A stretch of 21,750 nt of DNA from a virus. Both the position numbers and the translations under genes were made by a program. The stretch covers positions 1 through 21,750 of IMG/VR virus record IMGVR_UViG_3300027797_000163; one strand, 5' to 3'. Below the pieces are notes generated by a model that worked only from the letters and a program-made list of their open reading frames with translations, had not been told where the DNA came from and ran no database searches. This document shows, in pieces, positions 6,926 to 20,420 of this stretch; position 1 is the stretch's first letter, and each line of letters opens with the position of its first letter.

Positions 6926-7249
6926 TTACTCCTTATCTAAATATTTGTCAATCGCTTCATCAATCTCTTTACCGAGCATCCATTGCCATTTGGTCATATC
7001 GCCGTTACACAGGATTACTGACGGCGCTGCAATCTCAGGATTCACATCCCACGATGCACTGCGTAGCCAGTTATATCGCTCTGCATTCTTGAACACTTCC
7101 TGATTGTCCTGAATGCGACTGAACACATTCTTGTTGAGTTCTCTCAATCGGTCAATCTCAGTGCATAAATCAGTAATGATTTTACGAGTGACATGGTAGT
7201 CATCGGTCTGTGCATAACGCTTGGCTTTTTCAATTAAATCATTATTCAT
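6926..7249 (-). CDS. Hypothetical phage protein, 107 aa, ATGA-coupled to primase-helicase
   Basis: A 107-residue protein with an N-terminal charged helical/coiled region (residues 1-58, including ITDLCTEIDRLRELNKNV) and a C-terminal half containing NAERYNWLRSASWD and GKEIDEAIDKYLDKE. The ERYNWLR...EIDEAID pattern recurs at the C-termini of many small phage proteins of unknown function (family recollection, no search). Its start overlaps the primase-helicase stop by 4 bases (ATGA, 7246-7249). Confidence 0.75.
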   Translation of the reverse strand: MNNDLIEKAKRYAQTDDYHVTRKIITDLCTEIDRLRELNKNVFSRIQDNQEVFKNAERYNWLRSASWDVNPEIAAPSVILCNGDMTKWQWMLGKEIDEAIDKYLDKE

Positions 7250-8832
7250 AGTGTATCCTTTATCTCTAACATTCTTCCGGTTTGTCCATTATACAGCAAA
7301 GAACCACAATTGCCAGTGTAGCCACTAAATCGATTCTTTAATACCCTAACACTAGTGGTGTTGCGCTCAATCATATCTGCAGCCTGTCCATTACGCTCTA
7401 ACCCAATAACGATGTCAGAGAGCTGTGCAATAGCGCCTGAACCACGCAACTGTGCTAAGGATGTCACAGCACCTTCCTCGTGTCCACGACCTTCGTTACG
7501 CTTTAGGTGTGAGACACAAATCAAACTGATGCCAGTCTCCTGTACAATCATGCGTAGCTTAGTCATGATAGCGTCTAAGGCTTTACGCTCATCACCAACA
7601 TCGCCACCACTGACAATAATACTAATGTGGTCAAGAAACACATAACCACAGCCAAGACCTTTAGCCATGTAACGCACTCTGTTGACAATATTTTCCAAAG
7701 AAGTGCTGCCAAAATGGTCAAACAAATACAAACGGTCAGTTCCCAAAGTTCTATCAAATGCATCTTTTAACTCCTCAGAAGTAACTTCAACATCAGGTAA
7801 ATGAATAGGTTTGTTCACCGCCAAAGACATAAGCGACCTAGCAGTCTTGCGGACTCCCTCTTCAAGAAACATAAGTCCGACATTGTCACTAGTCTTGTTA
7901 AGGATATGCCAAACGATTTCTCGTAAGAACTGAGATTTGCCAAGACCAGAGCCTGCTGTGACCATGACAAGTTCCCCTTTACGAATGCCGTATGTGAGTT
8001 TATTAACGCCGTCATACGGATAGTCACAATCAGCTTTCTCAATAGGAGACGATACCAATTCCCAGAGGGTGTTACCTTGAATAATTCCATCAGGTATGTA
8101 AGATTCAGCAGCCCACCAAGTATCAATAAATTCTTTACTAGCATCATTTTCAAGGTAATCAGAGGCATCTTTGTATCCTGTCTTGTGTTTCATGATTTTA
8201 ACTTTGCCACCAAACAACTCCGCTACTGCTTGTGCTGCTTTCTGTCCGGGTTCATCGGCATCAAACGATAAGATAATATTCTCAAAAGAATCAATCCATT
8301 CGTATTCTGCTTTACAGTCCTTTAGAGCGCCACTAGCGCCACTGCGAATACTGACACAAGGGTATTTGCTACCCTGCATCTGATAAGCCGCTAGAGCGTC
8401 TAATTCACCCTCACAGATAGTTAAGTAGCGACCTGATTTAGTAAACAGATTCTGACCAAAGAGTGTGGCTTCCTTGAAGTCACCAGCAATGCTAAACGAC
8501 TTAGCCTCAACCACCCTAGTCTTGATAGCAACCATCTTGCCGTCAATGTCATAGTAGGGATAGTAGTGTTTGCCATCATCCTGTTTAACACCAAAGGCTA
8601 TGCAAGTAGCCGAAGTAATACCACGATTAACGATACTACGAGAAGAAGCAGTGTCATAAAAGTTTAGTTCCTTGTTCATTGGTTTTTTGTAATCTTTCGT
8701 AATTTCACCATTCCTAGCCTTGTATGTGTGGCATACATGGCAGTAAGTGTGTCCATCGCTGTGCATCGCATTACCATCGCTTGACCCGCACGCATCACAA
8801 GCCATGTGATAGAGAAATTTACTCTCAGTCAA
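7246..8832 (-). CDS. DNA primase-helicase (T7 gp4-like)
   Basis: Start chosen at TTG 8832, giving 528 residues. AGAGGGG lies eight bases upstream, the TTG overlaps the upstream stop as TTGA, and the product then begins TESKFLYHMACDACGSSDG, aligning with the T7 gp4 N-terminus. The zinc site Cys12/15/31/34 has the same spacing as T7 Cys17/20/36/39. The reading frame stays open to ATG 8967, but those 45 extra residues are low-complexity. TOPRIM: ICEGELDALA (Glu141) and SFDADEPG (Asp191, Asp193). RecA-type helicase: AGSGLGKSQ (Lys299), FLEEG (Glu324), VFLDHIS (Asp401), SHLKR (His442) and KNRFSGYTG (Arg501, the T7 Arg522 finger). It unwinds the fork and makes primers for the polymerase encoded downstream. 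T7 gp4A is 566 residues. Confidence 0.95.
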   Translation of the reverse strand: MTESKFLYHMACDACGSSDGNAMHSDGHTYCHVCHTYKARNGEITKDYKKPMNKELNFYDTASSRSIVNRGITSATCIAFGVKQDDGKHYYPYYDIDGKMVAIKTRVVEAKSFSIAGDFKEATLFGQNLFTKSGRYLTICEGELDALAAYQMQGSKYPCVSIRSGASGALKDCKAEYEWIDSFENIILSFDADEPGQKAAQAVAELFGGKVKIMKHKTGYKDASDYLENDASKEFIDTWWAAESYIPDGIIQGNTLWELVSSPIEKADCDYPYDGVNKLTYGIRKGELVMVTAGSGLGKSQFLREIVWHILNKTSDNVGLMFLEEGVRKTARSLMSLAVNKPIHLPDVEVTSEELKDAFDRTLGTDRLYLFDHFGSTSLENIVNRVRYMAKGLGCGYVFLDHISIIVSGGDVGDERKALDAIMTKLRMIVQETGISLICVSHLKRNEGRGHEEGAVTSLAQLRGSGAIAQLSDIVIGLERNGQAADMIERNTTSVRVLKNRFSGYTGNCGSLLYNGQTGRMLEIKDTL

Positions 8833-8999
8833 TGTTTTGACCCCTCTGCCGTAATCAGTTGGCAACGAAGTGCTTGTACCTCTGCCAGTGCCATAACTAG
8901 TTCGGTTTGTGTTCGCACCAGTTCGTCCTGTAATGCTTTGATTTGGTTCATCAAATCTTGTTCGCATAATTCTCTATCCTCGCTCGTAAAAGTTGTCAT
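8829..8999 (-). CDS. Small coiled-coil protein, 56 aa
   Basis: Start chosen at ATG 8999, seven bases after GGAG; an in-frame upstream ATG at 9080 would run across the neighbouring gene. The 56 residues (MTTFTSEDRELCEQDLMNQI...) show a heptad-like pattern of Leu/Val/Met through residues 16-50, so a coiled coil is expected. Its stop overlaps the TTG start proposed for the primase-helicase, suggesting translational coupling. Function unknown. Confidence 0.68.
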   Translation of the reverse strand: MTTFTSEDRELCEQDLMNQIKALQDELVRTQTELVMALAEVQALRCQLITAEGSKH

Positions 9000-9848: not shown

Positions 9849-10027
9849 GAGTTCCTTGCAATCATCCAATCTAACGCATCATGCAAAATACTAAATCTAG
9901 GTGATTGTTCGGTTTTGTTCTTCCATTGGAATACCATCTTATCAGCAACATCCCAAGTATTCTTATCATGGTTCCACTTTGCCGAACGCTCATGGTCTGT
10001 AATCAATTCCATCCCCATCTTATTCAT
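9845..10027 (-). CDS. Hypothetical protein, 60 aa
   Basis: A 60-residue Trp-rich protein (MNKMGMELITDHERSAKWNH..., ending LHDALDWMIARNS). Start overlaps the upstream gene by 8 bases and the stop overlaps the next start by ATGA. The pattern of Trp and charged residues suggests a small beta domain with a C-terminal helix. No family recognised. Confidence 0.66.
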   Translation of the reverse strand: MNKMGMELITDHERSAKWNHDKNTWDVADKMVFQWKNKTEQSPRFSILHDALDWMIARNS

Positions 10028-10190
10028 CCATATCCTCCGCTACTGCTCGACCGACTAATCGATTAACCTTATCAGCGATAGCAGTTGATAAATCGTCCAT
10101 GACCTTGTCATAACCATAATCACCAATTAAATCAACCATATCCATCATAATAAAGTGATAGCGTGCTTCTTCGTTATGACTTTGATTCAT
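10020..10190 (-). CDS. First gene of the replication operon, 56 aa hypothetical
   Basis: ATG 10190 follows a GGGGGGT ribosome binding site and opens 56 codons (MNQSHNEEARYHFIMMDMVD, ending GRAVAEDMDE). Acidic and helical. It is the first gene downstream of the minus promoter at 10223-10251, and its stop lies within the next gene (8-base overlap). Function unknown. Confidence 0.68.
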   Translation of the reverse strand: MNQSHNEEARYHFIMMDMVDLIGDYGYDKVMDDLSTAIADKVNRLVGRAVAEDMDE

Positions 10191-10222
10191 AAACACCCCC
10201 CGTTAGTTAAAAGACAATACCA

Positions 10223-10251
10223 ATTAAAAGACATAACCACCAAAAAGTCAA
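10223..10251 (-). promoter_or_regulatory. sigma70 promoter for the replication operon
   Basis: On the minus strand TTGACT (10251-10246) and TTTAAT (10228-10223) are separated by exactly 17 bases. Transcription would start near 10216 and reach the first gene at 10190. A repeated TTGTCTTTTAA-like element lies over and after the -10. Confidence 0.75.
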
Positions 10252-10274
10252 TACATAAGACAAAAATAAACTAC

Positions 10275-10303
10275 TTGACAACAATTCAAAAGTGCATTAT
10301 AAT
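10275..10303 (+). promoter_or_regulatory. Perfect-consensus sigma70 promoter pointing into the early cluster
   Basis: TTGACA (10275-10280), a 17-base spacer, then TATAAT (10298-10303): a complete consensus on the plus strand. The predicted start is near 10310. There is no plus-strand gene before 14416, so the product is either a small RNA from 10310 on or an antisense transcript to the minus cluster at 10435-13542. The -35 boxes of this and the divergent minus promoter are only 23 bases apart. Confidence 0.82.
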
Positions 10304-10307
10304 AACT

Positions 10308-10416
10308 ATATAGGTAAACAACATAGACTATCGTTGATTGTTTCTTTATGTTAATTGATAGTAGTCTATATTCACAGTTACGATATAGACTATATTAACT
10401 ATAACGATACCTATAT
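10308..10416 (+). ncRNA. Candidate structured RNA downstream of the plus promoter
   Basis: The segment starts where transcription should begin and contains nested inverted repeats. The outer arm is ATATAGGTA (10308-10316) with TACCTATAT (10408-10416). TATCGTT (10329-10335) pairs with AACGATA (10403-10409), and TAGTCTATA (10362-10370) with TATAGACTA (10384-10392). ATAGACTAT at 10323-10331 can also pair with 10362-10369, so alternative folds exist. No ORF of note is present. The same elements could instead be DNA operators. Confidence 0.35.
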
Positions 10417-10434
10417 TACCCGCAAGCGAGTGCA

Positions 10435-10695
10435 TTATCGCTCATCCCAATCAGTCCAGTAGTCACCATCTTCATATAAATCTAGCTCTCCATTGATATA
10501 ACCCTCATCATCAATCAATGATTCAGGTAATGCCGTATCCGATTCCGCCATTAAATCTTGCCTTACTTGGATTGGTATGTGCGCCTCTATTGTCTTTAAA
10601 CAATCGGTGCATATCTCAATATACTTTTTAGTGAAAGCGTGTTTAATCGTCGCCTCATAGTCTGTCAACATGGTATTGCAACATTGGCATCTCAT
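10435..10695 (-). CDS. Zinc-finger-like acidic protein, 86 aa
   Basis: Start chosen at ATG 10695 (MRCQCCNTMLTDYEATIKHA) because AAGGAG lies nine bases upstream; an in-frame ATG at 10728 sits inside the preceding gene. Cys3, Cys6, Cys29 and Cys32 form a two-knuckle zinc site of a kind common in small phage proteins (CxxC...LTDYEAT...CxxC), followed by an acidic tail ending YEDGDYWTDWDER. Such proteins can be host RNA polymerase or translation modulators, but this is unproved. Last gene of the early cluster. Confidence 0.78.
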   Translation of the reverse strand: MRCQCCNTMLTDYEATIKHAFTKKYIEICTDCLKTIEAHIPIQVRQDLMAESDTALPESLIDDEGYINGELDLYEDGDYWTDWDER

Positions 10696-10696
10696 C

Positions 10697-10954
10697 TTAA
10701 AAATCTCCTTCAGCAATATTCTGAGCAATATCTAACCAATAAGCCTTAACTTTGTCTATTACTTCGGCGGGTGCGCTATTGGGTTTATAGTCCTCATCTA
10801 GCTCTAATTGGCTTAGCGCCTCATCCCAATTATCAGAATCAGCCCAATAGCACTGCCCGTCACTAGCGATTAGACAATCAACAGACTCCTGAAATGCTTC
10901 GCTATCATAATCCCCGTCGTCGGGTTCATAGTATCGATTATTGTTGTAATTCAT
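10697..10954 (-). CDS. Acidic hypothetical protein, 85 aa
   Basis: Start chosen at ATG 10954 with AGAGG upstream; an in-frame ATG at 10981 lies against the terminator-like hairpin. The 85 residues (MNYNNNRYYEPDDGDYDSEA...) are extremely acidic and Tyr/Asn-rich at the N-terminus, then helical (PAEVIDKVKAYWLDIAQNI). Net charge is strongly negative, as in DNA-mimic anti-defence proteins, though nothing specific identifies it. Confidence 0.72.
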   Translation of the reverse strand: MNYNNNRYYEPDDGDYDSEAFQESVDCLIASDGQCYWADSDNWDEALSQLELDEDYKPNSAPAEVIDKVKAYWLDIAQNIAEGDF

Positions 10955-10973
10955 AAAAGCCTCTCTATTCAAG

Positions 10974-11008
10974 AAAAACATAGTAGATAATACCTCGGTA
11001 TCATCTAC
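10974..11008 (-). terminator. Intrinsic terminator or attenuator within the early cluster
   Basis: On the minus strand the arms GTAGATGATACC (11008-10997) and GGTATTATCTAC (10994-10983) form a 12-bp stem with one G-U pair and a tiny loop, followed after four bases by TTTTT (10978-10974). This looks like a rho-independent terminator lying directly upstream of the last two genes of the cluster. It could therefore tune their expression as an attenuator. Confidence 0.6.
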
Positions 11009-11030
11009 ACCATAAAAACCCCGTATACGC

Positions 11031-11050
11031 CGTTTTAGAGCGTTTTAGAG
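11031..11050. repeat. Perfect tandem 10-bp duplication
   Basis: CGTTTTAGAG occurs twice head to tail. The right-hand copy contains the stop codon of the 33-residue membrane peptide gene on the minus strand. Probably a local duplication. Confidence 0.8.
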
Positions 11051-11146
11051 GTATTCATGAGTATAACATAACATCACTCCAACAAGATGATAAACAACAT
11101 AGGCTAAAATAAGGTATGTCATACACCAAAATAATAGGGTTTTCAT
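11045..11146 (-). CDS. Single-span membrane microprotein, 33 aa
   Basis: ATG 11146 overlaps the preceding stop as ATGA and is preceded by GGAGAGGG. The 33 residues begin MKTLLFWCMTYLILAYVVYH and continue LVGVMLCYTHEYL, essentially one hydrophobic helix. It is too short for most gene callers. Coupling and the membrane-like composition support translation; the function is unknown (toxin-like, superinfection or host membrane modulation are guesses). Confidence 0.58.
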   Translation of the reverse strand: MKTLLFWCMTYLILAYVVYHLVGVMLCYTHEYL

Positions 11147-11295
11147 TCTGTTTTTACCCTCTCCTGAGTAAGCATTTTAGTAAAATCCTGATACCACTTA
11201 TCAAAATCATTAACCCCGCACATTAGCCTAAAATCGGGGTCATCTAAGCGCATTGCCATAAAATCCATGTAATAGTCAAATCTATCCTTATTCAT
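11143..11295 (-). CDS. Small hypothetical protein, 50 aa
   Basis: ATG 11295 opens 50 codons (MNKDRFDYYMDFMAMRLDDP, then DFRLMCGVNDFDKWYQDFTK, ending QERVKTE). It starts one base after the stop of the preceding gene with GAGG-like purines upstream, and is ATGA-coupled to the membrane microprotein. Aromatic and acidic, probably helical. Function unknown. Confidence 0.65.
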   Translation of the reverse strand: MNKDRFDYYMDFMAMRLDDPDFRLMCGVNDFDKWYQDFTKMLTQERVKTE

Positions 11296-11296
11296 A

Positions 11297-11497
11297 TCAA
11301 TACCCCTCTTTCTCAGATAACCACGCTTTAATCACTTCGTCAATGTCTTCTGTTTTCTCAGTGATAATATTAGCGTCAATGATTCGCTTAGCGATATTAC
11401 ATAAGTGCCAGCGACTTTCTGCCCTAGGTCTATCCTCTAATATATCGCCAATTTGTAGCGCCACTTCTGTGGCTATTTCTAAGTGTGAATAATTCAT
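11297..11497 (-). CDS. Hypothetical protein, 66 aa
   Basis: A 66-residue protein (MNYSHLEIATEVALQIGDIL..., ending VIKAWLSEKEGY), predicted all-helical with amphipathic helices at 5-20 and 30-48. ATGA overlap with the CxxC gene upstream (11494-11497). No family recognised. Confidence 0.7.
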   Translation of the reverse strand: MNYSHLEIATEVALQIGDILEDRPRAESRWHLCNIAKRIIDANIITEKTEDIDEVIKAWLSEKEGY

Positions 11498-11670
11498 TCT
11501 TCAATCTCCTCATCATATTGTCGCAATTGGTCAATCATATCAAAACAACTCGCCAAACAAGTAGGGCAAAACGCTACGGGAATAATGCCAAACTCTCCGG
11601 CTATCCCGCCCTCACTGTCTAAACTAAAAACATAATGGCAAGTAGAGCATTTTGTTTTTTCGTCTTTCAT
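11494..11670 (-). CDS. CxxC zinc-binding protein, 58 aa
   Basis: ATG 11670 opens 58 codons with Cys8/Cys11 (KCSTCHY) and Cys35/Cys38 (FCPTCLASC), a compact four-cysteine zinc ribbon, and an acidic C-terminal helix (QLRQYDEEIEE). It is coupled by ATGA to both flanking genes (11667-11670 and 11494-11497). Function unknown; one of three consecutive-type small zinc proteins in this cluster. Confidence 0.72.
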   Translation of the reverse strand: MKDEKTKCSTCHYVFSLDSEGGIAGEFGIIPVAFCPTCLASCFDMIDQLRQYDEEIEE

Positions 11671-11873
11671 GCCATAGCCTCATTAAAAACAACATCATAA
11701 CAATGTGAGCAAATAGCGTCTAAGCCTTGTTCATCCATACAGTCAATAATTGCTAACTGCTTTTCTGTGTGCTCATCCCAATCAACATTCCAAAATAAAT
11801 CATTACTAGAATGAATAGACCCGCATTTATCACAGGTTTGTAAACCTTGCATTAATTGTTCATCAGTAATCAT
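11667..11873 (-). CDS. CxxC zinc-binding protein, 68 aa
   Basis: Start chosen at ATG 11873, seven bases after GAAGAGG; a TTG at 11879 in frame would overlap the previous stop. The 68 residues have Cys14/Cys17 (TCDKCGS) and Cys55/Cys58 (ICSHCYD), a zinc-ribbon pair flanking an acidic helix. ATGA-coupled to the next gene. Function unknown. Confidence 0.72.
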   Translation of the reverse strand: MITDEQLMQGLQTCDKCGSIHSSNDLFWNVDWDEHTEKQLAIIDCMDEQGLDAICSHCYDVVFNEAMA

Positions 11874-11875
11874 AA

Positions 11876-12118
11876 TCAAACCTCTTCGCTTTCATAGATA
11901 TACTCTAATTGGTTATAAACTTCTTGCGCTATTTCATCATCTGTCATATTGATATAACCCTTACAACCGCCTAAAAGTAGGTCATAAATCGTATTATCGT
12001 TATAGGTAGAATCTGACTGACATAGGGTTAAATCGTTTTCTAGTAATTCGTCAATCCATTCTTGCCGTGTTTTCGTAATCTTATTATTGCAATTAAATCT
12101 AACTGTCAATTCACTCAT
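11876..12118 (-). CDS. Acidic hypothetical protein, 80 aa
   Basis: An 80-residue protein (MSELTVRFNCNNKITKTRQE...) with a short beta start, then acidic helices ending YNQLEYIYESEEV. It begins 2 bases after the preceding stop. No domain recognised; the composition is typical of early phage proteins. Confidence 0.7.
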   Translation of the reverse strand: MSELTVRFNCNNKITKTRQEWIDELLENDLTLCQSDSTYNDNTIYDLLLGGCKGYINMTDDEIAQEVYNQLEYIYESEEV

Positions 12119-12120
12119 TT

Positions 12121-12342
12121 TTATATCTCCTCTTTAGCGGGTTCAAACTTCGGGCAATCATCATCTAATTCGCAATAATCAGCAACTCCCGCATCATATC
12201 CGAGTTTATAGAATTGCTTATGTAGCTCGTTCATGTTTTCATATGTGCCATTCTCAAAATAGCCTGATGCTCTGCCTTGCCAATATCCTAAAGCATACGG
12301 GAAAGCATCTTTTAAGAATTGCGTTGTTTGATAGTCTGTCAT
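12121..12342 (-). CDS. Hypothetical protein, 73 aa
   Basis: A 73-residue protein with Tyr/Gly-rich repeats YALGYWQGRASGYFENG and FYKLGYDAGVADYCELDDD. The GYxxGxxDYC element resembles short helices of small phage proteins of unknown function. It starts 2 bases after the neighbouring gene. No function can be assigned. Confidence 0.7.
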   Translation of the reverse strand: MTDYQTTQFLKDAFPYALGYWQGRASGYFENGTYENMNELHKQFYKLGYDAGVADYCELDDDCPKFEPAKEEI

Positions 12343-12344
12343 AG

Positions 12345-12515
12345 TTAAGCCTTTAATTGGTTATATAGCATTGTTAATTTATCATCAGGATAAACAGTGT
12401 ATCCGCCTAGTGCTAAGAAATCGATTAGTATCTGTATATTTTCATATTCAGGGTCGCCTACAATCCAATCGATTTCATTTTGTGTCAATTCCTTAATCAT
12501 TTTAATTCGATTCAT
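12345..12515 (-). CDS. Hypothetical protein, 56 aa
   Basis: Start chosen at ATG 12515, preceded by GAAAGGGG; the frame stays open upstream to 12551 but that part lies in the membrane microprotein gene. The 56 residues begin MNRIKMIKELTQNEIDWIVG and end YPDDKLTMLYNQLKA; helical and amphipathic. Function unknown. Confidence 0.66.
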   Translation of the reverse strand: MNRIKMIKELTQNEIDWIVGDPEYENIQILIDFLALGGYTVYPDDKLTMLYNQLKA

Positions 12516-12528
12516 AATAAAACCCCTT

Positions 12529-12609
12529 TCATAAATAGAAAACAATGACATAAACCGCAGTTAAACAAGTGTATAAACACACGCCGGTAAGTAATAAAGA
12601 TTTAAGCAT
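12529..12609 (-). CDS. Single-span membrane microprotein, 26 aa
   Basis: ATG 12609 shares a base with the preceding stop (TAATG) and opens 26 codons: MLKSLLLTGVCLYTCLTAVY followed by VIVFYL. It is one hydrophobic helix with a positive N-terminus and two Cys. The stop is followed directly by the AAGGGG of the next gene, so it fits the operon exactly. Very short, so only moderately certain. Confidence 0.5.
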   Translation of the reverse strand: MLKSLLLTGVCLYTCLTAVYVIVFYL

Positions 12610-12938
12610 TATTCTGCCTCGCTTTCCTGTTTGTCATCCTCTAATTGCTCCGCCTCTACCTCGACATAATAGCGGGCTATTTCGTGAAAGTTTACCTCTC
12701 GAAATGAGGCGTTCATTACATCAGCGAAAAACCCTGACTCAATATCGGGCATCATATCAACAAACATATCGTTGATTCTTTCCGCCACTAAGCCTGTGAT
12801 TGTGTCTAAATCCTCATATGAGCCGAAATAATCGCCTGTAATCAGAGCGATTTGCTCAGACATACGCCAATCGTTATCAATCCACAAATTAGCGTTCCAA
12901 GTTTCGTAATTTGTCCATCCATTGTATTTACTAGACAT
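12609..12938 (-). CDS. Conserved phage protein (DUF7249-like), 109 aa
   Basis: A 109-residue acidic protein starting MSSKYNGWTNYETWNANLWI. The YNGWTNYETWNxxLW opening is a conserved signature of a family found across phages and plasmids, which I recall as DUF7249. It is all-helical, with an acidic C-terminus (EAEQLEDDKQESEAE). Function is unknown in the family. It starts 16 bases after the upstream gene and is TAATG-coupled to the membrane microprotein. Confidence 0.8.
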   Translation of the reverse strand: MSSKYNGWTNYETWNANLWIDNDWRMSEQIALITGDYFGSYEDLDTITGLVAERINDMFVDMMPDIESGFFADVMNASFREVNFHEIARYYVEVEAEQLEDDKQESEAE

Positions 12939-12954
12939 GATTAAACCCTTTCAA

Positions 12955-13251
12955 TTAGATTGCGACATTGTCGAGATAGGTGATACCCTTGCGAGTGCTG
13001 ACACTAGCGCCCAAAGCCCGTAGGCGTGATTTAGTGGTAGGTGTTGACCATTGTGCCAAGGTTTTGACATCAACGTCTAAGTCCTTAGAATCATACCAAT
13101 AATCCGCTATGTGATTACCATGTAGATAAATCTCAGCACGCAAGCCAAAGGGATTCCCGCCACCATTCTCGATATGGACTAAGGTGTTGTCCATTGTCCA
13201 ATTGCGTTTGGACTCGATAGCGTTAAGCATTTGTTGTTCAATCTTTCTCAT
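12955..13251 (-). CDS. Conserved small phage protein, 98 aa
   Basis: A 98-residue protein beginning MRKIEQQMLNAIESKRNWTM, then LRAEIYLHGNHIADYWYDS, and STPTTKSRLRALGASVSTRKG near the end. The pattern of an N-terminal helix, an xVYLHGNxIA strand and a TPTTxSRLRALG helix recurs in a family of small phage proteins seen near early genes (recollection). It may be a small nucleic-acid-binding fold, but no function is known. Confidence 0.8.
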   Translation of the reverse strand: MRKIEQQMLNAIESKRNWTMDNTLVHIENGGGNPFGLRAEIYLHGNHIADYWYDSKDLDVDVKTLAQWSTPTTKSRLRALGASVSTRKGITYLDNVAI

Positions 13252-13305
13252 TTGTAATACTCCTGTCTAAAGTTAAGATAAAGCATTTACTACAATTCCA
13301 GTCTA

Positions 13306-13334
13306 TCCCTATCGCTAACGCTACGCAATAGGGA
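13306..13334. other. Stem-loop between two early genes
   Basis: TCCCTATCGC (13306-13315) and GCAATAGGGA (13325-13334) form a 10-bp stem with one mismatch on the plus strand, which is a G-U pair on the minus-strand RNA; the loop is nine bases. It is not followed by T-runs on either side, so it is more likely a processing or stability element than a terminator. Confidence 0.5.
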
Positions 13335-13344
13335 CAAACCCTTA

Positions 13345-13542
13345 TTAATTTAAATATATAGTATTGTGAACAAAATCAACCCTGTAATTTACTTGGGTGT
13401 CTTTCGGGTAATCCTTAAACACGAACAAAGCGTCAGTCTTTTTCATCTCAAAATATGTGCCGTCATCATCACTATATTTGACATAGCCCATGATTCGCTT
13501 GCATTGTTTCAAGTCTTTTAAAAAGTCTTTTAATGTAAACAT
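13345..13542 (-). CDS. First gene of the early cluster, 65 aa hypothetical
   Basis: A 65-residue basic-start protein (MFTLKDFLKDLKQCKRIMGY, ending VDFVHNTIYLN), mixed alpha/beta. AAAGGGAACACC gives its ribosome binding site. It lies next to the large control region and would be the first gene translated from an early minus transcript starting in that region. No family recognised. Confidence 0.7.
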   Translation of the reverse strand: MFTLKDFLKDLKQCKRIMGYVKYSDDDGTYFEMKKTDALFVFKDYPKDTQVNYRVDFVHNTIYLN

Positions 13543-13712: not shown

Positions 13713-13833
13713 TGCACTATAATGGTGCATCATTGCCCCATACATATTCTCTATCGCCTGCACAGTCTTAATAGTTTTTCTCTATCGTCATGTAAGTGAG
13801 CGCTTACTTGCAGCACTGCACTATATTGGTGCA
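13713..13833. repeat. Two copies of the dyad TGCACTATAWTGGTGCA
   Basis: TGCACTATAATGGTGCA (13713-13729) and TGCACTATATTGGTGCA (13817-13833) differ at one base. Each has TGCAC/GTGCA arms around a 7-base centre that contains a -10-like hexamer (TATAAT or TATATT). A related TTGGTGCAA lies at 13692-13700. This is a repressor-over-promoter layout, although no good -35 is seen at 17 bases. Confidence 0.65.
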
Positions 13834-13858
13834 TAACCATGTAAGTGAGTGCTTACTT
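13794..13858. repeat. Two copies of a 16-bp palindrome AAGTGAGYGCTTACTT
   Basis: Copies at 13794-13809 (AAGTGAGCGCTTACTT) and 13843-13858 (AAGTGAGTGCTTACTT), start to start 49 bases apart, each preceded by ATGT. A third copy, a perfect palindrome, lies at 20791-20806 after a late promoter. The shape resembles operators of dimeric helix-turn-helix regulators such as the TetR type. Confidence 0.75.
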
Positions 13859-13954
13859 CGCTAAAGTGTTGTATTAAAACAACATAGGGGGGGAGGGTAG
13901 ACTATGTTGTGTAATGTTGGCGGAGCCTCCATAGCATACAAAAGAGTAAAATAG

Positions 13955-14004: not shown

Positions 14005-14063
14005 TTGATTAGTAAGGAAGAATAAAATAGGGACAGACTCGATGGAAATGCTCACTCCGTAGG

Positions 14064-14114
14064 AGGTCGCTGTTGTCCCCAGCGGAGACCTATATTGTCA
14101 GTGCAGACCCGCTG
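14064..14114 (+). other. G+C-rich stem-loop with competing partner
   Basis: AGGTCGCTG (14064-14072) pairs with CAGC (14080-14083) and GACCT (14087-14091) across a 3-base bulge, giving a 9-bp stem with a 7-base loop. CAGCGG (14080-14085) can instead pair with CCGCTG (14109-14114). The block is richer in G+C than its surroundings, which suggests a conserved structure, DNA or RNA. No T-run follows. Confidence 0.45.
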
Positions 14115-14175: not shown

Positions 14176-14204
14176 TTGACAAAATAGCAAAAATGTGCTA
14201 AAAT
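14176..14204 (+). promoter_or_regulatory. sigma70 promoter for the packaging/structural operon
   Basis: TTGACA (14176-14181), 17-base spacer, TAAAAT (14199-14204). Start of transcription is expected near 14211, leaving a 205-base leader before the terminase small subunit. Nineteen bases from the -10 start, AAACAACA (14218-14225) matches the same position of the 10275 promoter. Confidence 0.85.
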
Positions 14205-14243
14205 CGCCTTACAAGTTAAACAACACACTATAAAGAAACATAT

Positions 14244-14376
14244 AAGCCCTGCAAGCAGTGGATTTATTATAGCACGCTAAACCACTCTAAACCACTTGGT
14301 GAAAAACAATTACCAAGAAACCCCCTGATAGCGAACTACAGCCTAACGGCAGTATACTATAGTACTAATAGGGCTT
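14244..14376 (+). ncRNA. Structured 5' leader of the late transcript
   Basis: AAGCCCT (14244-14250) can pair with AGGGCTT (14370-14376), closing a domain of about 133 bases that contains an AGTGG/CCACT stem, CTTGGT (14295-14300) with ACCAAG (14312-14317), and a GCC/GGC mini-hairpin. A TTTGAATTTTTGTG tract follows the closing stem, as in an attenuator. No ORF is present. Structure is read by eye only. Confidence 0.4.
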
Positions 14377-14415
14377 TGAATTTTTGTGTCTTTCCTTTAA
14401 GGATAAAAAGGCGTT

Positions 14416-14895
14416 ATGTTAGAAGTTGAAAAACAATTATCTACCGAAGATGCACAGTCGCTAGACGATGGTATTGTCTTAAAGAAGCGGCGACCAAAGT
14501 TGGTTAGACGCAAAGTAGTCGATGGTAAACCTGTTCGTGGTCGTCCTTCCAACAAGGCTCTCGCCAAGAAGAAGAATCCCGGCGTGGTGGGCAGACCGCC
14601 CGGCGACGCAGCAAGGATTGCAGAGTTTAGAGCAAGGCTGTTGGCAACGCATGGCGATAGTGTGATAGAGAAGATTATCACGACTGCGCTACAGGATGGA
14701 CACCCAGCACAGGGAGCAATGCTAAAGTTCTGTGGAGAACGATTGTTACCACTCTCAGGCTTTGAAGGAAAGAACGGTGGTGGTACGCCACAGATTAGTA
14801 TTAACATCAGCGGACTCAGTTCGACAATTGAAACCTCTGAAGTGATAGACAATGATGTCACCGATGTAACCATTAAGGACATCGATGAATCTTGA
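14416..14895 (+). CDS. Terminase small subunit (probable)
   Basis: A 159-residue protein with a basic N-terminal third (KKRRPKLVRRKVVDGKPVRG at 24-43, GRPSNKALAKKKNPGVVGRP) suited to DNA binding, then a helical centre (DAARIAEFRARLLATHGDSV) with AMLKFCGERLLPLSGFEG and a C-terminal acidic tail. The central pattern recurs in phage genes that lie directly before TerL. It would recognise the packaging site and load the large subunit. It overlaps terL by 11 bases. AAAGG precedes the ATG. The name rests on position and pattern; sequence similarity among small subunits is generally weak. Confidence 0.8.
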   Translation: MLEVEKQLSTEDAQSLDDGIVLKKRRPKLVRRKVVDGKPVRGRPSNKALAKKKNPGVVGRPPGDAARIAEFRARLLATHGDSVIEKIITTALQDGHPAQGAMLKFCGERLLPLSGFEGKNGGGTPQISINISGLSSTIETSEVIDNDVTDVTIKDIDES

Positions 14896-16205: not shown

Positions 16206-18250
16206 ACGAAGGCACTAGCTGGGAAGAACCCTCTGAAGCAGACAAAGAGCTTTGTGCTTTTGTTATACAACATTGTGACCGCTGGAGAGATTCTCGTGAT
16301 GAGAACTACCTAGAATACTGGAAAGAGTACGAAAGAATCTTCCGTGGAATCTGGGCAGACGAAGACAAGACACGAGAGTCTGAGCGTAGCCGTCTAATCA
16401 GTCCAGCAACACAACAGGCAGTAGAAACCCGCCATGCTGAAATCATGGAAGCAATATTTGGTAACGGAGAGTTCTTCGACATCAAGGACGATGTGCGTGA
16501 TTACAACAACAATCCAATGGATGTTGAAGCACTCAAGATTCAGCTTAGAGAAGACCTTGAGAAACATAAGATTCGTAAGTCTGTTGACCAAGTAGAATTG
16601 ATGGCAGAGATTTATGGTACTGGTATCGGTGAGATTATCGTTAAGCAAGAGAAAGAGTTTGTTCCTGCTACGATGCCAATGCCGGGCAGTACACAAGCAG
16701 CCTATGGCGTACAAGAGAAAGAATACTTCTGCGTTAAGGTTGTTCCTGTCAATCCGAAGAACTTCCTTATTGACCCCAACGCTACCTCAATTGAGGATGC
16801 AATGGGTTGCGCTGTTGAAAAGTTTGTGTCGATTCACAAAGTGGTTGAAGGCATGGAAAAAGGTATCTATCGTAAGGTAGACATCGGACCTGCTGGCAAT
16901 GACGATGACTTAGAAGTAACTCAAGAAGTAGTTCAGTACCAAGACGATAAAGTCAAGCTCCTAACCTATTATGGTTTAGTGCCTAGAGAGTACCTAGAAC
17001 AGCTTGAGAACGAAGGTGACGAAGTTGTTGACCTCTTCCCTGAAGACAGTACTGCGGATAGCTACAGCGACCTCGTAGAAGCTATTGTCGTTATCGCTAA
17101 CGATGGACTACTCCTCAAGGCTGAGAAGAATCCCTACATGATGCAAGACCGACCTGTCATCGCCTACCAAGACGATACAGTTCCTAATCGTTTCTGGGGT
17201 CGTGGTACAGTTGAGAAAGCCTATAATATGCAAAAGGCTATCGACGCACAGCTACGCAGTCACCTAGACAGCTTGGCATTGACCACAGCACCAATGATTG
17301 CGATTGATGCGACTCGCTTACCTCGTGGTTCTAAGTTTGAAGTTAAACCCGGTAAAGCACTTCTTACCAATGGTAATCCTGCTGAGATTATGATGCCATT
17401 CAAGTTTGGTCAGACTAGCCCTGAGAACTTCGCTACCTCAAAAGAGTTCGAGCGTATGTTGCTCATGGCAACTGGAACCCTAGATAGCCAAGGAGTTGTG
17501 TCTCAGGCTTCTCGTGATGCCTCTGGTGCTGGTATGTCTATGGCAATGGCTGGTATCATCAAGAAGTACAAACGCACCTTAACGAACTTCCAAGAAGACT
17601 TCATGGTTCCGTTAATCAAGAAAGCAGCCTTCCGTTATATGCAATTTGACCCTGAGCGTTATCCTTCAGTAGATATGAAGTTTATTCCTACTGCTACTTT
17701 GGGTATTATGGCTCGTGAATACGAACAACAACAGCTCATTGGACTATTACAGACCCTTGGACCTAATACACCAGTCCTCCCAATCATCCTCAAAGGCATC
17801 ATTACCAATTCTAGCCTGTCTAATCGTGCTGAACTAGAGCAAGCATTGACCCAAATGAGTCAACCTAACCCAGAACAACAGCAAATGCAGCAAGTTCAGG
17901 CTCAACTAGCAATGCAAACCCAACAAGCACAGATTAAACAGCTTGATGCTAGTGCTGCTAAAGACATGGCAGATGCTCAGAAGACGATGGTTGAGGCACA
18001 GTTGGCTCCGAAAGAGGTGGAAGCCAAGGTTCTGAGTGCTGTTTCACGCAATTTACCAGACGACGACAATGCTGCCAATGTAGAATTTGACCGCAGAGTT
18101 AAGATTGCTGAGTTAATGCTAAAAGAAGCAGACTTAAAGAACAACACCAAGATTGTTGAGTTGCAAATGGCAGATAAAATGGCTACAATAGGGAAAGCAG
18201 AAGAAGAATTCCTAAATAACTTAACTGAGAAGCTATCAAACAATGGCTAA
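16184..18250 (+). CDS. Portal protein
   Basis: The 688-residue portal subunit; a dodecameric ring at one head vertex is the family arrangement. Family features include RDSRDENYLEYWKEYERIFRG near residue 36, SRLISPATQQAVETRHAEIM at about 71-90, VVPVNPKNFLIDPNA, and DRPVIAYQDDTVPNRFWGRG in the clip/stem region. The C-terminal 120 residues are Gln-rich and coiled-coil-like (QQQMQQVQAQLAMQTQQAQI), as in the barrel of podovirus portals. AAAGGAAAATT gives the start. It follows terL by 42 bases and overlaps the fibre gene by 8. Length fits podovirus-type portals. Confidence is high from motifs and gene order. Confidence 0.92.
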   Translation: MAENMDMNEGTSWEEPSEADKELCAFVIQHCDRWRDSRDENYLEYWKEYERIFRGIWADEDKTRESERSRLISPATQQAVETRHAEIMEAIFGNGEFFDIKDDVRDYNNNPMDVEALKIQLREDLEKHKIRKSVDQVELMAEIYGTGIGEIIVKQEKEFVPATMPMPGSTQAAYGVQEKEYFCVKVVPVNPKNFLIDPNATSIEDAMGCAVEKFVSIHKVVEGMEKGIYRKVDIGPAGNDDDLEVTQEVVQYQDDKVKLLTYYGLVPREYLEQLENEGDEVVDLFPEDSTADSYSDLVEAIVVIANDGLLLKAEKNPYMMQDRPVIAYQDDTVPNRFWGRGTVEKAYNMQKAIDAQLRSHLDSLALTTAPMIAIDATRLPRGSKFEVKPGKALLTNGNPAEIMMPFKFGQTSPENFATSKEFERMLLMATGTLDSQGVVSQASRDASGAGMSMAMAGIIKKYKRTLTNFQEDFMVPLIKKAAFRYMQFDPERYPSVDMKFIPTATLGIMAREYEQQQLIGLLQTLGPNTPVLPIILKGIITNSSLSNRAELEQALTQMSQPNPEQQQMQQVQAQLAMQTQQAQIKQLDASAAKDMADAQKTMVEAQLAPKEVEAKVLSAVSRNLPDDDNAANVEFDRRVKIAELMLKEADLKNNTKIVELQMADKMATIGKAEEEFLNNLTEKLSNNG

Positions 18251-20420
18251 CATTAAAGATTTTATTAAGAAAATCGGTAATAGTGCTGTTTCGTTAGAGG
18301 AGCAGCAACAGGCATTAGCTCAGGTAGAGAAGACCATCATCGAAGCCAAGCAAAAGCGTACCGAAGCAGTTGGTAAGAACGCTGATATGGTGATTCAGGC
18401 ACTTAAAACCATTGAAGCAAAGCTAGAGGCTAAATTAAACGAGTTAAACAACACTCCAGCTAAGCAAGGTGTCCAAGGACCTGTTGGTAAAGACGGTAAA
18501 GATGGCAAAGACGGTAAAGCTGGTCGTGATGGAATCAGCGGTAAAGACGGAACCGATGGCAAAGACGGCGTAGACGGTAAAGACGGTATCTCAGTCGTTG
18601 ACGCTAAGATTGACTTTGATGGTTCCTTAGTTGTTTACCTATCTAACGGTAGTGAAATTGATTGCGGTCAGATATTACAGCCTGAAGTAGCTAAGAATAT
18701 TATCATCAGTAGCGGTGGCTCTGGTACATCACAGGTTGTTACCGATACCTTAGTGTCTCTACAGAATCAGATTAATACTTTAACTGGTATTGATGGTATC
18801 TTAGGTGATATGGCACAGCAAAACGCCAACGCAGTAGCTATCACAGGCGGCACAATCAATGGCACTACTATTGGTGCTACTACCCCATCTACAGGTAAAT
18901 TTTCAACTTTAGAAACTACAGGAACAAGCACTTTAGGTACAAGCTCTAGCCAATTTATTCAAGCTGAAGGTGGTGCAACAGCAGTTTTATTGTCTGCCCA
19001 AGGCTCAGGAACTAACATTCCATTGGCTTTACAGCCAAAAGGAACAGGAGCAATCCAAGCACAAGCTACTACATCTACTGCTGCTGGTGGTAATGCTAGG
19101 GGTTCTAGAGCCGTTGATTGGCAATTGGAAAGAGGAACAGCTAGTCAAGTAGCTAGTGGTGCTTATTCAAATATTGGTGGTGGATTTGGAAATATTAATA
19201 ATACTTTTGCTGGTTCTCTTGGCGGTGGATATGATAATACAGCAAGCGGAAACTTTGCTTCTGTTTTAGGTGGAAGAAATAATACAGCTAGTGGAACACA
19301 AGCATTTGTTGGCGGTGGATATATAAATACTGCGGCTGGGTATTTAAATTTTATTGGCGGTGGTTTTACTAATTCAGGCACAGCATTAGCGGCAGTAACT
19401 ACTCAAAGTGGTACGATGAACGCTACTACAGCCGTTACATTGTCAGGTAGTAACGCTAACATCAAAGTCGGTCAATACATCACAGGCACTTCAATCTCTG
19501 GTGATACCTATGTAGCCGCTATAAGTGGAACAGCATTAACTTTAAGTAAAGTAGCATCAGGCTCATCTACATCAACCCTATCATTCTTTACCCCTCATGG
19601 AGTAGTAGTAGGCGGTGGTAATAACCAAGCTACAGGGGCATATAGTGCAATTCTAGGCGGAGGCGATGCTGGTACTGCGGCTAATAGGAATGTGGCTAGT
19701 GGGGATTGGAGTTTTGTTGGTGGTGGTAGAACTAACACAGCTTCAGGAAGTGGTGCGGTAGTTGCTGGTGGTGGATATTACAATGGAGTAGGTGCATCAA
19801 ATGCTGGTAATACAGCTTCAGGTGATGGTGCTTTTATTGGTGGCGGTTTTTCTAACTCAGCACAATCATTTGGTGCTAGTATTTTAGGTGGAAATAATAA
19901 TACTGCTAATGCTACTTATTCTGTTGTACTAGGTTCTCAAGCTGGAATAACAAGAGGTATTCAAGGAAATACTGTTTCCCCAGCTAGTGCAACTCCGATT
20001 GGCTCACCACAAGGCTCTGCACAATCAGCTTTACTTGTATTGGGTGTTCAAACTACAGACGCTACAGCAACAGTACTACGCTCAAATACATCAGCCGCAG
20101 GTACAAACAATCAAGTAATCCTACCTAATAACTCTGCTTACTTCTTTACTGGAGAAGTAGTATCAGGAGTTACTGGCGGTGGTAACACGAAAGGTTTTAC
20201 TATCGAGGGTGTAATTAAGCGTGGTGCTAATGCCGCATCTACAGCTTTAGTTGGTACTCCTACAGTAACTTCTACTTATGCTGATGCTGGTGCATCGACA
20301 TGGGCTATCGCAGTAACAGCCGACACGACTAATGGTGGTTTAAGAGTAACCTTTACAGGGCAAGCTAGTACGACAATTAGAACAGTAGCACAAATTCGTA
20401 CAACAGAAATGACTTACTAA
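18243..20420 (+). CDS. Trimeric fibre: coiled coil, collagen-like stalk, YadA-like beta-roll
   Basis: A 725-residue structural fibre. Residues 14-70 are a charged coiled coil; 76-115 carry 13 Gly-X-Y triplets (mostly GKD), a collagen-like stalk; 155-300 are Ser/Thr/Gly-rich linker; about 302-380 and 453-568 hold repeats of the form GGGxxNxAxGxxAxVxGG, resembling the left-handed beta-roll of YadA-type adhesin heads; 600-725 is a beta-rich tip. Residues 380-453 are a distinct inserted domain (NIKVGQYITGTSISG...). All elements trimerise in known proteins. Position directly after the portal would fit a head fibre or a receptor-binding tail fibre; which one cannot be told. Start overlaps the portal by 8 bases. 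Confidence 0.85.
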   Translation: MANIKDFIKKIGNSAVSLEEQQQALAQVEKTIIEAKQKRTEAVGKNADMVIQALKTIEAKLEAKLNELNNTPAKQGVQGPVGKDGKDGKDGKAGRDGISGKDGTDGKDGVDGKDGISVVDAKIDFDGSLVVYLSNGSEIDCGQILQPEVAKNIIISSGGSGTSQVVTDTLVSLQNQINTLTGIDGILGDMAQQNANAVAITGGTINGTTIGATTPSTGKFSTLETTGTSTLGTSSSQFIQAEGGATAVLLSAQGSGTNIPLALQPKGTGAIQAQATTSTAAGGNARGSRAVDWQLERGTASQVASGAYSNIGGGFGNINNTFAGSLGGGYDNTASGNFASVLGGRNNTASGTQAFVGGGYINTAAGYLNFIGGGFTNSGTALAAVTTQSGTMNATTAVTLSGSNANIKVGQYITGTSISGDTYVAAISGTALTLSKVASGSSTSTLSFFTPHGVVVGGGNNQATGAYSAILGGGDAGTAANRNVASGDWSFVGGGRTNTASGSGAVVAGGGYYNGVGASNAGNTASGDGAFIGGGFSNSAQSFGASILGGNNNTANATYSVVLGSQAGITRGIQGNTVSPASATPIGSPQGSAQSALLVLGVQTTDATATVLRSNTSAAGTNNQVILPNNSAYFFTGEVVSGVTGGGNTKGFTIEGVIKRGANAASTALVGTPTVTSTYADAGASTWAIAVTADTTNGGLRVTFTGQASTTIRTVAQIRTTEMTY

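Follow-up and report, generated by a model that had tools for sequence, protein, structure and literature searches.

A conserved consensus promoter with an AT-rich downstream segment as a candidate transcription-dependent replication origin in a clade of uncultured aquatic phages

Described origins and opposing promoters, and how the locus compares

R-loop origins of the oriF type in phage T4 combine a promoter with a downstream unwinding element, and the T4 origins use a middle promoter together with accessory proteins of the phage. To our knowledge, the choice of start site in phages which carry a T7-type replication module and no recognised RNA polymerase gene has not been worked out. The primary origin of phage T7 contains an AT-rich cluster and nearby priming sites (PMC12839067). 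In phage lambda, the promoter pO opposes pR and its OOP RNA, complementary to the last part of an early gene, overlaps cII; loss of pO disturbs replication as well (PMC3985674, PMC5869508).

The locus considered here lies in a viral DNA stretch of 21,750 nt (the whole stretch that was analysed, called the window below) and consists of a promoter, P1, and the AT-rich segment following it, together called the P1 unit. It is similar to the T7 primary origin (phi1.1A/phi1.1B) in that a promoter stands directly before an AT-rich segment which belongs to the least stable DNA of the genome, and in that a primase-helicase, a family A DNA polymerase and a gp2.5-like SSB are encoded in the genome. However, P1 matches the sigma-70 consensus, whereas the T7 origin promoters serve the phage polymerase; there is one promoter instead of two, and P1 points against its own operon. 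The resemblance to lambda pO/OOP is that a host-type promoter opposes the early transcript in the early and replication region, but OOP is tied to cII and stops at the hairpin terminator tO, whereas no terminator is seen near the P1 unit, and the early gene whose 3' end is overlapped does not stay the same, as another gene intervenes in three relatives (L026, L027 and L064). By general description, a promoter with a downstream unwinding element, the unit is also like the T4 oriF-type origins. The Pelagibacter phages HTVC103P and HTVC104P, which come closest among cultured phages as judged by the primase-helicase (about 51% identical), differ in that the helicase lies inside a long co-directional gene run, and no comparable opposing consensus promoter was found in the stretch just upstream of it.

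The P1 unit and its conservation among relatives

The sequence-only reading had described a perfect TTGACA-17-TATAAT promoter on the plus strand, 4 kb behind it without a plus-strand gene, and nested, mutually exclusive inverted repeats in the predicted transcript, and all three descriptions were confirmed (Table 1). P1 matches the consensus at 12 of 12 positions and is the sole site of this quality in the window, where about 0.026-0.03 would be expected by chance; it also scores highest among 22 promoter-like sites between 8000 and 15000. It sits in the gap 10197-10434 between two minus-strand genes, A and B, whose products have no PHROG match. In the window, gene B is the gene that the predicted P1 transcript crosses in antisense, and the first credible plus-strand gene past P1 is a probable terS at 14416. 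The A+T content reaches 73.5% over 10304-10420, against 58.6% window-wide. The palindrome ATAGACTAT occurs at 10323 and 10385 and nowhere else in the window. The repeat search recovered the inverted repeats of Table 1, of which the first two exclude each other because they share an arm. No small conserved plus-strand ORF was seen in the unit by eye, and in many relatives an ATG there is directly followed by TGA or TAA (also judged by eye).

Table 1 Features of the P1 unit and its surroundings in the window
Feature	Position	Strand	Remark
Primase-helicase gene, T7-type	7246..8967	-	beside the unit; tblastn matches to annotated DNA primase / primase-helicase
Gene A, small conserved protein	10020..10196	-	left neighbour of the P1 unit; orthologues in relatives
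Upstream stretch AAAAGTCAATACATAAGACAAAAATAAACTAC	10243..10274	+	conserved; A-tract 10262-10270
P1 promoter	TTGACA 10275-10280, 17-nt spacer, TATAAT 10298-10303	+	predicted start ~10310
AT-rich downstream segment	10304..10421	+	conserved; candidate unwinding region and transcribed leader
Inverted repeat	10362-10371/10383-10392		10 bp, 100%
Inverted repeat	10320-10330/10362-10372		91%
Outer inverted-repeat pair	10308-10316/10408-10416		
Gene B, small CxxC protein, acidic C-terminus	10435..10728	-	right neighbour; orthologues in relatives
P2 promoter, TTGACA-17-TAAAAT	14176..14204	+	before probable terS; other conserved strong promoter

The primase-helicase as a query retrieved 80 related viral contigs, all of them metagenomic, and about 56 of these, plus the window, span the gap between genes A and B. 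P1 was found at the same place with 11-12 of 12 matches in nearly all of the gap-spanning contigs (class I), as TTGACA-16/17-TATAAT or a one-base variant of it. Every one of the closest relatives whose contigs cover the site has it, so that the absence from close relatives which would have refuted the sequence-only reading is not seen. L028 keeps the -10 and the downstream part and has a poor -35; L077, L079 and L080 are members of a sister clade. A pattern scan of viral contigs yielded eight further contigs with the unit, and genes A and B adjoin it in all eight. In the sister clade, recovered by a second helicase search, the equivalent spot is occupied by TTGACA-17-TGnTACCCT, a promoter of the extended -10 type, with TACTCT, TAACCT, TACTTT or TATCCT as the -10 in a few members. 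Throughout L131-L192 of this clade the -10 is nearly always TGnTACCCT, as opposed to the TATAAT of class I, a difference which could perhaps reflect another host. No match was found in a DNA-level search of annotated phages, nor a relative in the bacterial genomes searched for host identification.

In sampled class I pairs, the P1 hexamers are 99% identical, compared with 54% at fourfold sites of the helicase gene; identity is 77% over transcribed nt 1-50 and 67% over the next 60. The upstream stretch, with a mean identity of 74% in such pairs, also exceeds the 54% of the helicase fourfold sites. Its A-tract looks like an UP element, a role suggested by its sequence, and on its minus strand a TTGACT hexamer possibly marks a candidate divergent promoter. 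T7 primase-like pentamers in this stretch were considered and dropped, as they are lost in several relatives (by eye).

The surroundings of the unit are more variable. In L026 and L027 the unit and gene B are separated by a minus-strand gene of 190 aa, and in L064 by another one of 134 aa, while about 500-600 extra nt separate gene A from the unit in L008, L023 and L033. P1 and the downstream segment are kept in all these cases, which argues that the constant thing is the unit itself and not the gene that its transcript overlaps. The loci within a clade are homologous and hence are not independent trials; the sister clade, whose downstream sequence is unrelated to class I, therefore provides the best independent check. 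P1 and its segment are a real, conserved and probably functional unit.

These insertions bear directly on the proposal that P1 makes an antisense transcript which shuts off the gene cluster 10435-13542. The part of this proposal that stands is a conserved plus-strand promoter facing the minus-strand early cluster, which is strongly supported, and because the promoter opposes that cluster, an antisense transcript from P1 is likely, as judged from the sequence; the conserved part, however, ends before the genes. An OOP-like function, in which the P1 RNA or the moving polymerase would reduce the output of the cluster 10435-13542 at a later stage of infection, is suggested by orientation and position, since the transcript enters gene B at once, and lambda pO provides an actual precedent (PMC3985674, PMC5869508). 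The region 10436-10540 is moreover C-rich and G-poor (29.5% C, 10.5% G), which suits Rho-dependent ending and a short RNA. On the other hand, the C-over-G excess is merely average to high in the relatives, the gene under the transcript is a different one in L026, L027 and L064 with the unit unchanged, no intrinsic terminator is found near the unit, and a constitutive consensus promoter, if not masked, would work against the early genes right from the start of infection. We therefore regard such a function as unlikely, though it deserves some weight.

Replication genes, genome arms and the second conserved promoter

The eight near-complete relatives (G001-G008) share one layout, with the early and replication genes on a minus-strand arm and the structural genes on a longer plus-strand arm. 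The family A DNA polymerase, the gp2.5-like SSB and an exonuclease are encoded on the same arm as the primase-helicase. A search for a single-subunit RNA polymerase in these eight relatives gave no match, with the controls silent as well. TTGACA promoters with at least 11 of 12 matches recur in nearly all eight genomes at two places, P1 and P2, both on the plus strand, and one further plus-strand promoter of this quality is found in three of the eight. On the minus strand none reaching this threshold was found in the window or in G001-G008, despite the early and replication genes there.

P2 precedes the probable terS, which lies directly upstream of the terminase large subunit gene; TerL was assigned by PHROG, and the TerS product has no PHROG match. 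The P2 leader (14205-14395, plus strand) is conserved in relatives with a mean fold z-score of -1.8, and its hairpins look compensatory (CTTGGT..ACCAAG; GGGGAAC..GTTCCCC or AGGGGG..CCCCC at the equivalent place). It is closed by AAGCCCT..AGGGCTT, followed by a T-run before terS. By analogy with lambda pR', of which it is reminiscent, it is possibly an attenuated late leader RNA; it has no match in Rfam. Upstream of P2, a short plus-strand hairpin at 14047-14066 takes the forms CTCC-GTA-GGAG, CCTCT-GGA-AGAGG and CTGC-GAA-GCAG, both sides changing together between relatives as judged by eye. The divergent gap holds two copies of the inverted repeat GTAAGTGAGyGCTTAC (13790-13860), and two copies of GCACTATAwTGGTGCA lie near it (13714-13729 and 13820-13836). 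Similar motifs were seen in relatives, and these repeats are possibly regulator sites. Farther along the plus-strand arm, the product of 18243-20420, probably a tail or adhesin protein, contains repeated units of the GGxxNTASG type and a collagen-like stretch, GKDGKDGKDG.

Since P1 is co-directional with the structural genes and, together with P2, is one of the conserved strong promoters, its transcription might cross the 4 kb of antisense DNA and add to that from P2. No strong intrinsic terminator stands in the way; the sole plus-strand terminator-like site between P1 and P2, at 11460, is weak. However, Rho would normally cut short 4 kb of untranslated RNA, P2 and its conserved leader already head the structural genes so that P1 would duplicate P2, and the conserved AT-rich segment would be left unexplained. 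A role of P1 as an upstream late promoter is thus highly improbable.

RNA fold, duplex stability and the candidate origin

The inverted repeats had suggested a small structured phage RNA, with covariation across relatives as the check, and this suggestion is not supported: compensatory change did not exceed that in shuffled sequences, and no conserved fold was found. RNAalifold on 54 sequences returned no structure. Mean fold z-scores in class I are -0.9 (plus strand) and -0.8 (minus strand), and the sister-clade mean is -0.4, where a few members have strong hairpins with z near -4 which are not general. A consensus fold computed for the 17 closest relatives contains 31 pairs, not one of which shows a double compensatory change, and the outer helix lacks part of one arm in 6 of 17 close relatives. 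A stem ACATx/xATGT was also considered and rejected, because its fifth pair varies largely without compensation. None of the Rfam covariance models matched the unit at gathering score. In the absence of a conserved RNA fold, the act of transcription or the DNA itself is the likelier target of selection.

A trans-acting small RNA need not be folded: an RNA of about 110-200 nt, abundant and for the most part unstructured, could pair by its linear sequence with a host or phage transcript. The strong promoter would suit such an RNA, as would the better conservation of the first 50 transcribed nt than of the remainder in class I, and most class I members carry the block ACAACATAGACTATCGTTGATTGTT with hardly any change. 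But the downstream sequence of the sister clade is unrelated, a conserved fold, a terminator and an Rfam family are all absent, and the phage translation starts offer no shared target, the top matches being near the shuffled expectation and mostly unshared. This makes a pairing RNA rather unlikely. The palindromes could alternatively be operators for a phage or host protein controlling P1 or the minus-strand genes, considering that ATAGACTAT is found in the window at 10323 and 10385 alone and that most class I relatives have it too, in some cases as ATAGTCTAT. Its first copy is, however, destroyed in seven relatives (L040, L042, L043, L046, L058, L067 and L068), and the sister clade has other sequences, so that a regulator-binding element is the least probable of the explanations weighed here.

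The feature shared by the units is low duplex stability. Nearest-neighbour energies were ranked for 150-bp windows within each contig. Of 44 class I contigs, 43 have the unit among the least stable 1% of windows, and in 22 of the 44 no window is less stable. The same was found in the sister clade, where the 26 units all belong to the least stable 1.2% and the majority come first, even though their downstream sequence is not related to that of class I. The constant feature is a promoter followed by some 100-150 bp of DNA whose duplex stability is very low, and in the window the segment after P1 is the least stable DNA. Because the ranking is biased in favour of short non-coding gaps, which are AT-rich anyway, P2 and other gaps were taken as controls, which account for part of this bias: P2 is in the least stable 1% in 1 of 21 cases, and in seven of the eight near-complete genomes the P1 gap comes first among intergenic gaps of at least 120 bp, the gap of the eighth (G003) being left unscored, apparently as a chance ORF covers it. 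As a yardstick, the same measure applied to T7 ranks its primary origin (phi1.1A/B) within the least stable 0.06-0.5%, the figure varying with the window size chosen, and puts the overall stability minimum of T7 beside phiOL.

Given that low stability is the shared feature, a transcription-dependent origin fits better than a shut-off of the cluster or a small RNA. By analogy with T7, we tentatively propose that P1 and its AT-rich segment form a replication origin fired by host RNA polymerase, a reading to which we give somewhat less than an even chance. We infer transcription in vivo, DNA opening, priming and origin function from a locus where a conserved promoter, DNA of low duplex stability and nearby replication genes are found together. 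Host sigma-70 RNA polymerase would start at P1 (about 10310) and proceed rightward through the least stable DNA, and transcription into the AT-rich segment would open the duplex or form an RNA-DNA hybrid. The T7-type primase-helicase and the family A DNA polymerase of the phage could then load at the opened segment, and the replisome would start replication from the transcript or from the newly exposed strand. Antisense RNA over gene B would be an expected by-product of P1 firing.

Other observations bear on the proposed origin in both directions. The fourfold-site AT skew of the minus-strand genes differs across P1 in all eight genomes, which are related to each other; with finer binning the change across P1 is gradual, and the skew, a weak sign for an origin, could stem from gene content. 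Against an origin, the primary-sequence conservation in class I (77% over the first 50 nt) is higher than a pure melting element would need. Nor were iterons or known initiator sites recognised.

Opening of DNA and antisense transcription may also be two effects of one replicator, fired by host sigma-70 polymerase and opposing the early operon, which would open the DNA and at the same time shut the early genes; we consider this combined form quite unlikely. If it is true, such a replicator would couple the start of replication to the early-late switch in T7-like phages without a recognised RNA polymerase of their own. The constant promoter with its melting-prone segment, found by position and stability, provides a testable origin candidate for a large uncultured aquatic clade, and position together with stability, rather than sequence, may serve as a simple in-silico rule for finding other origin candidates.
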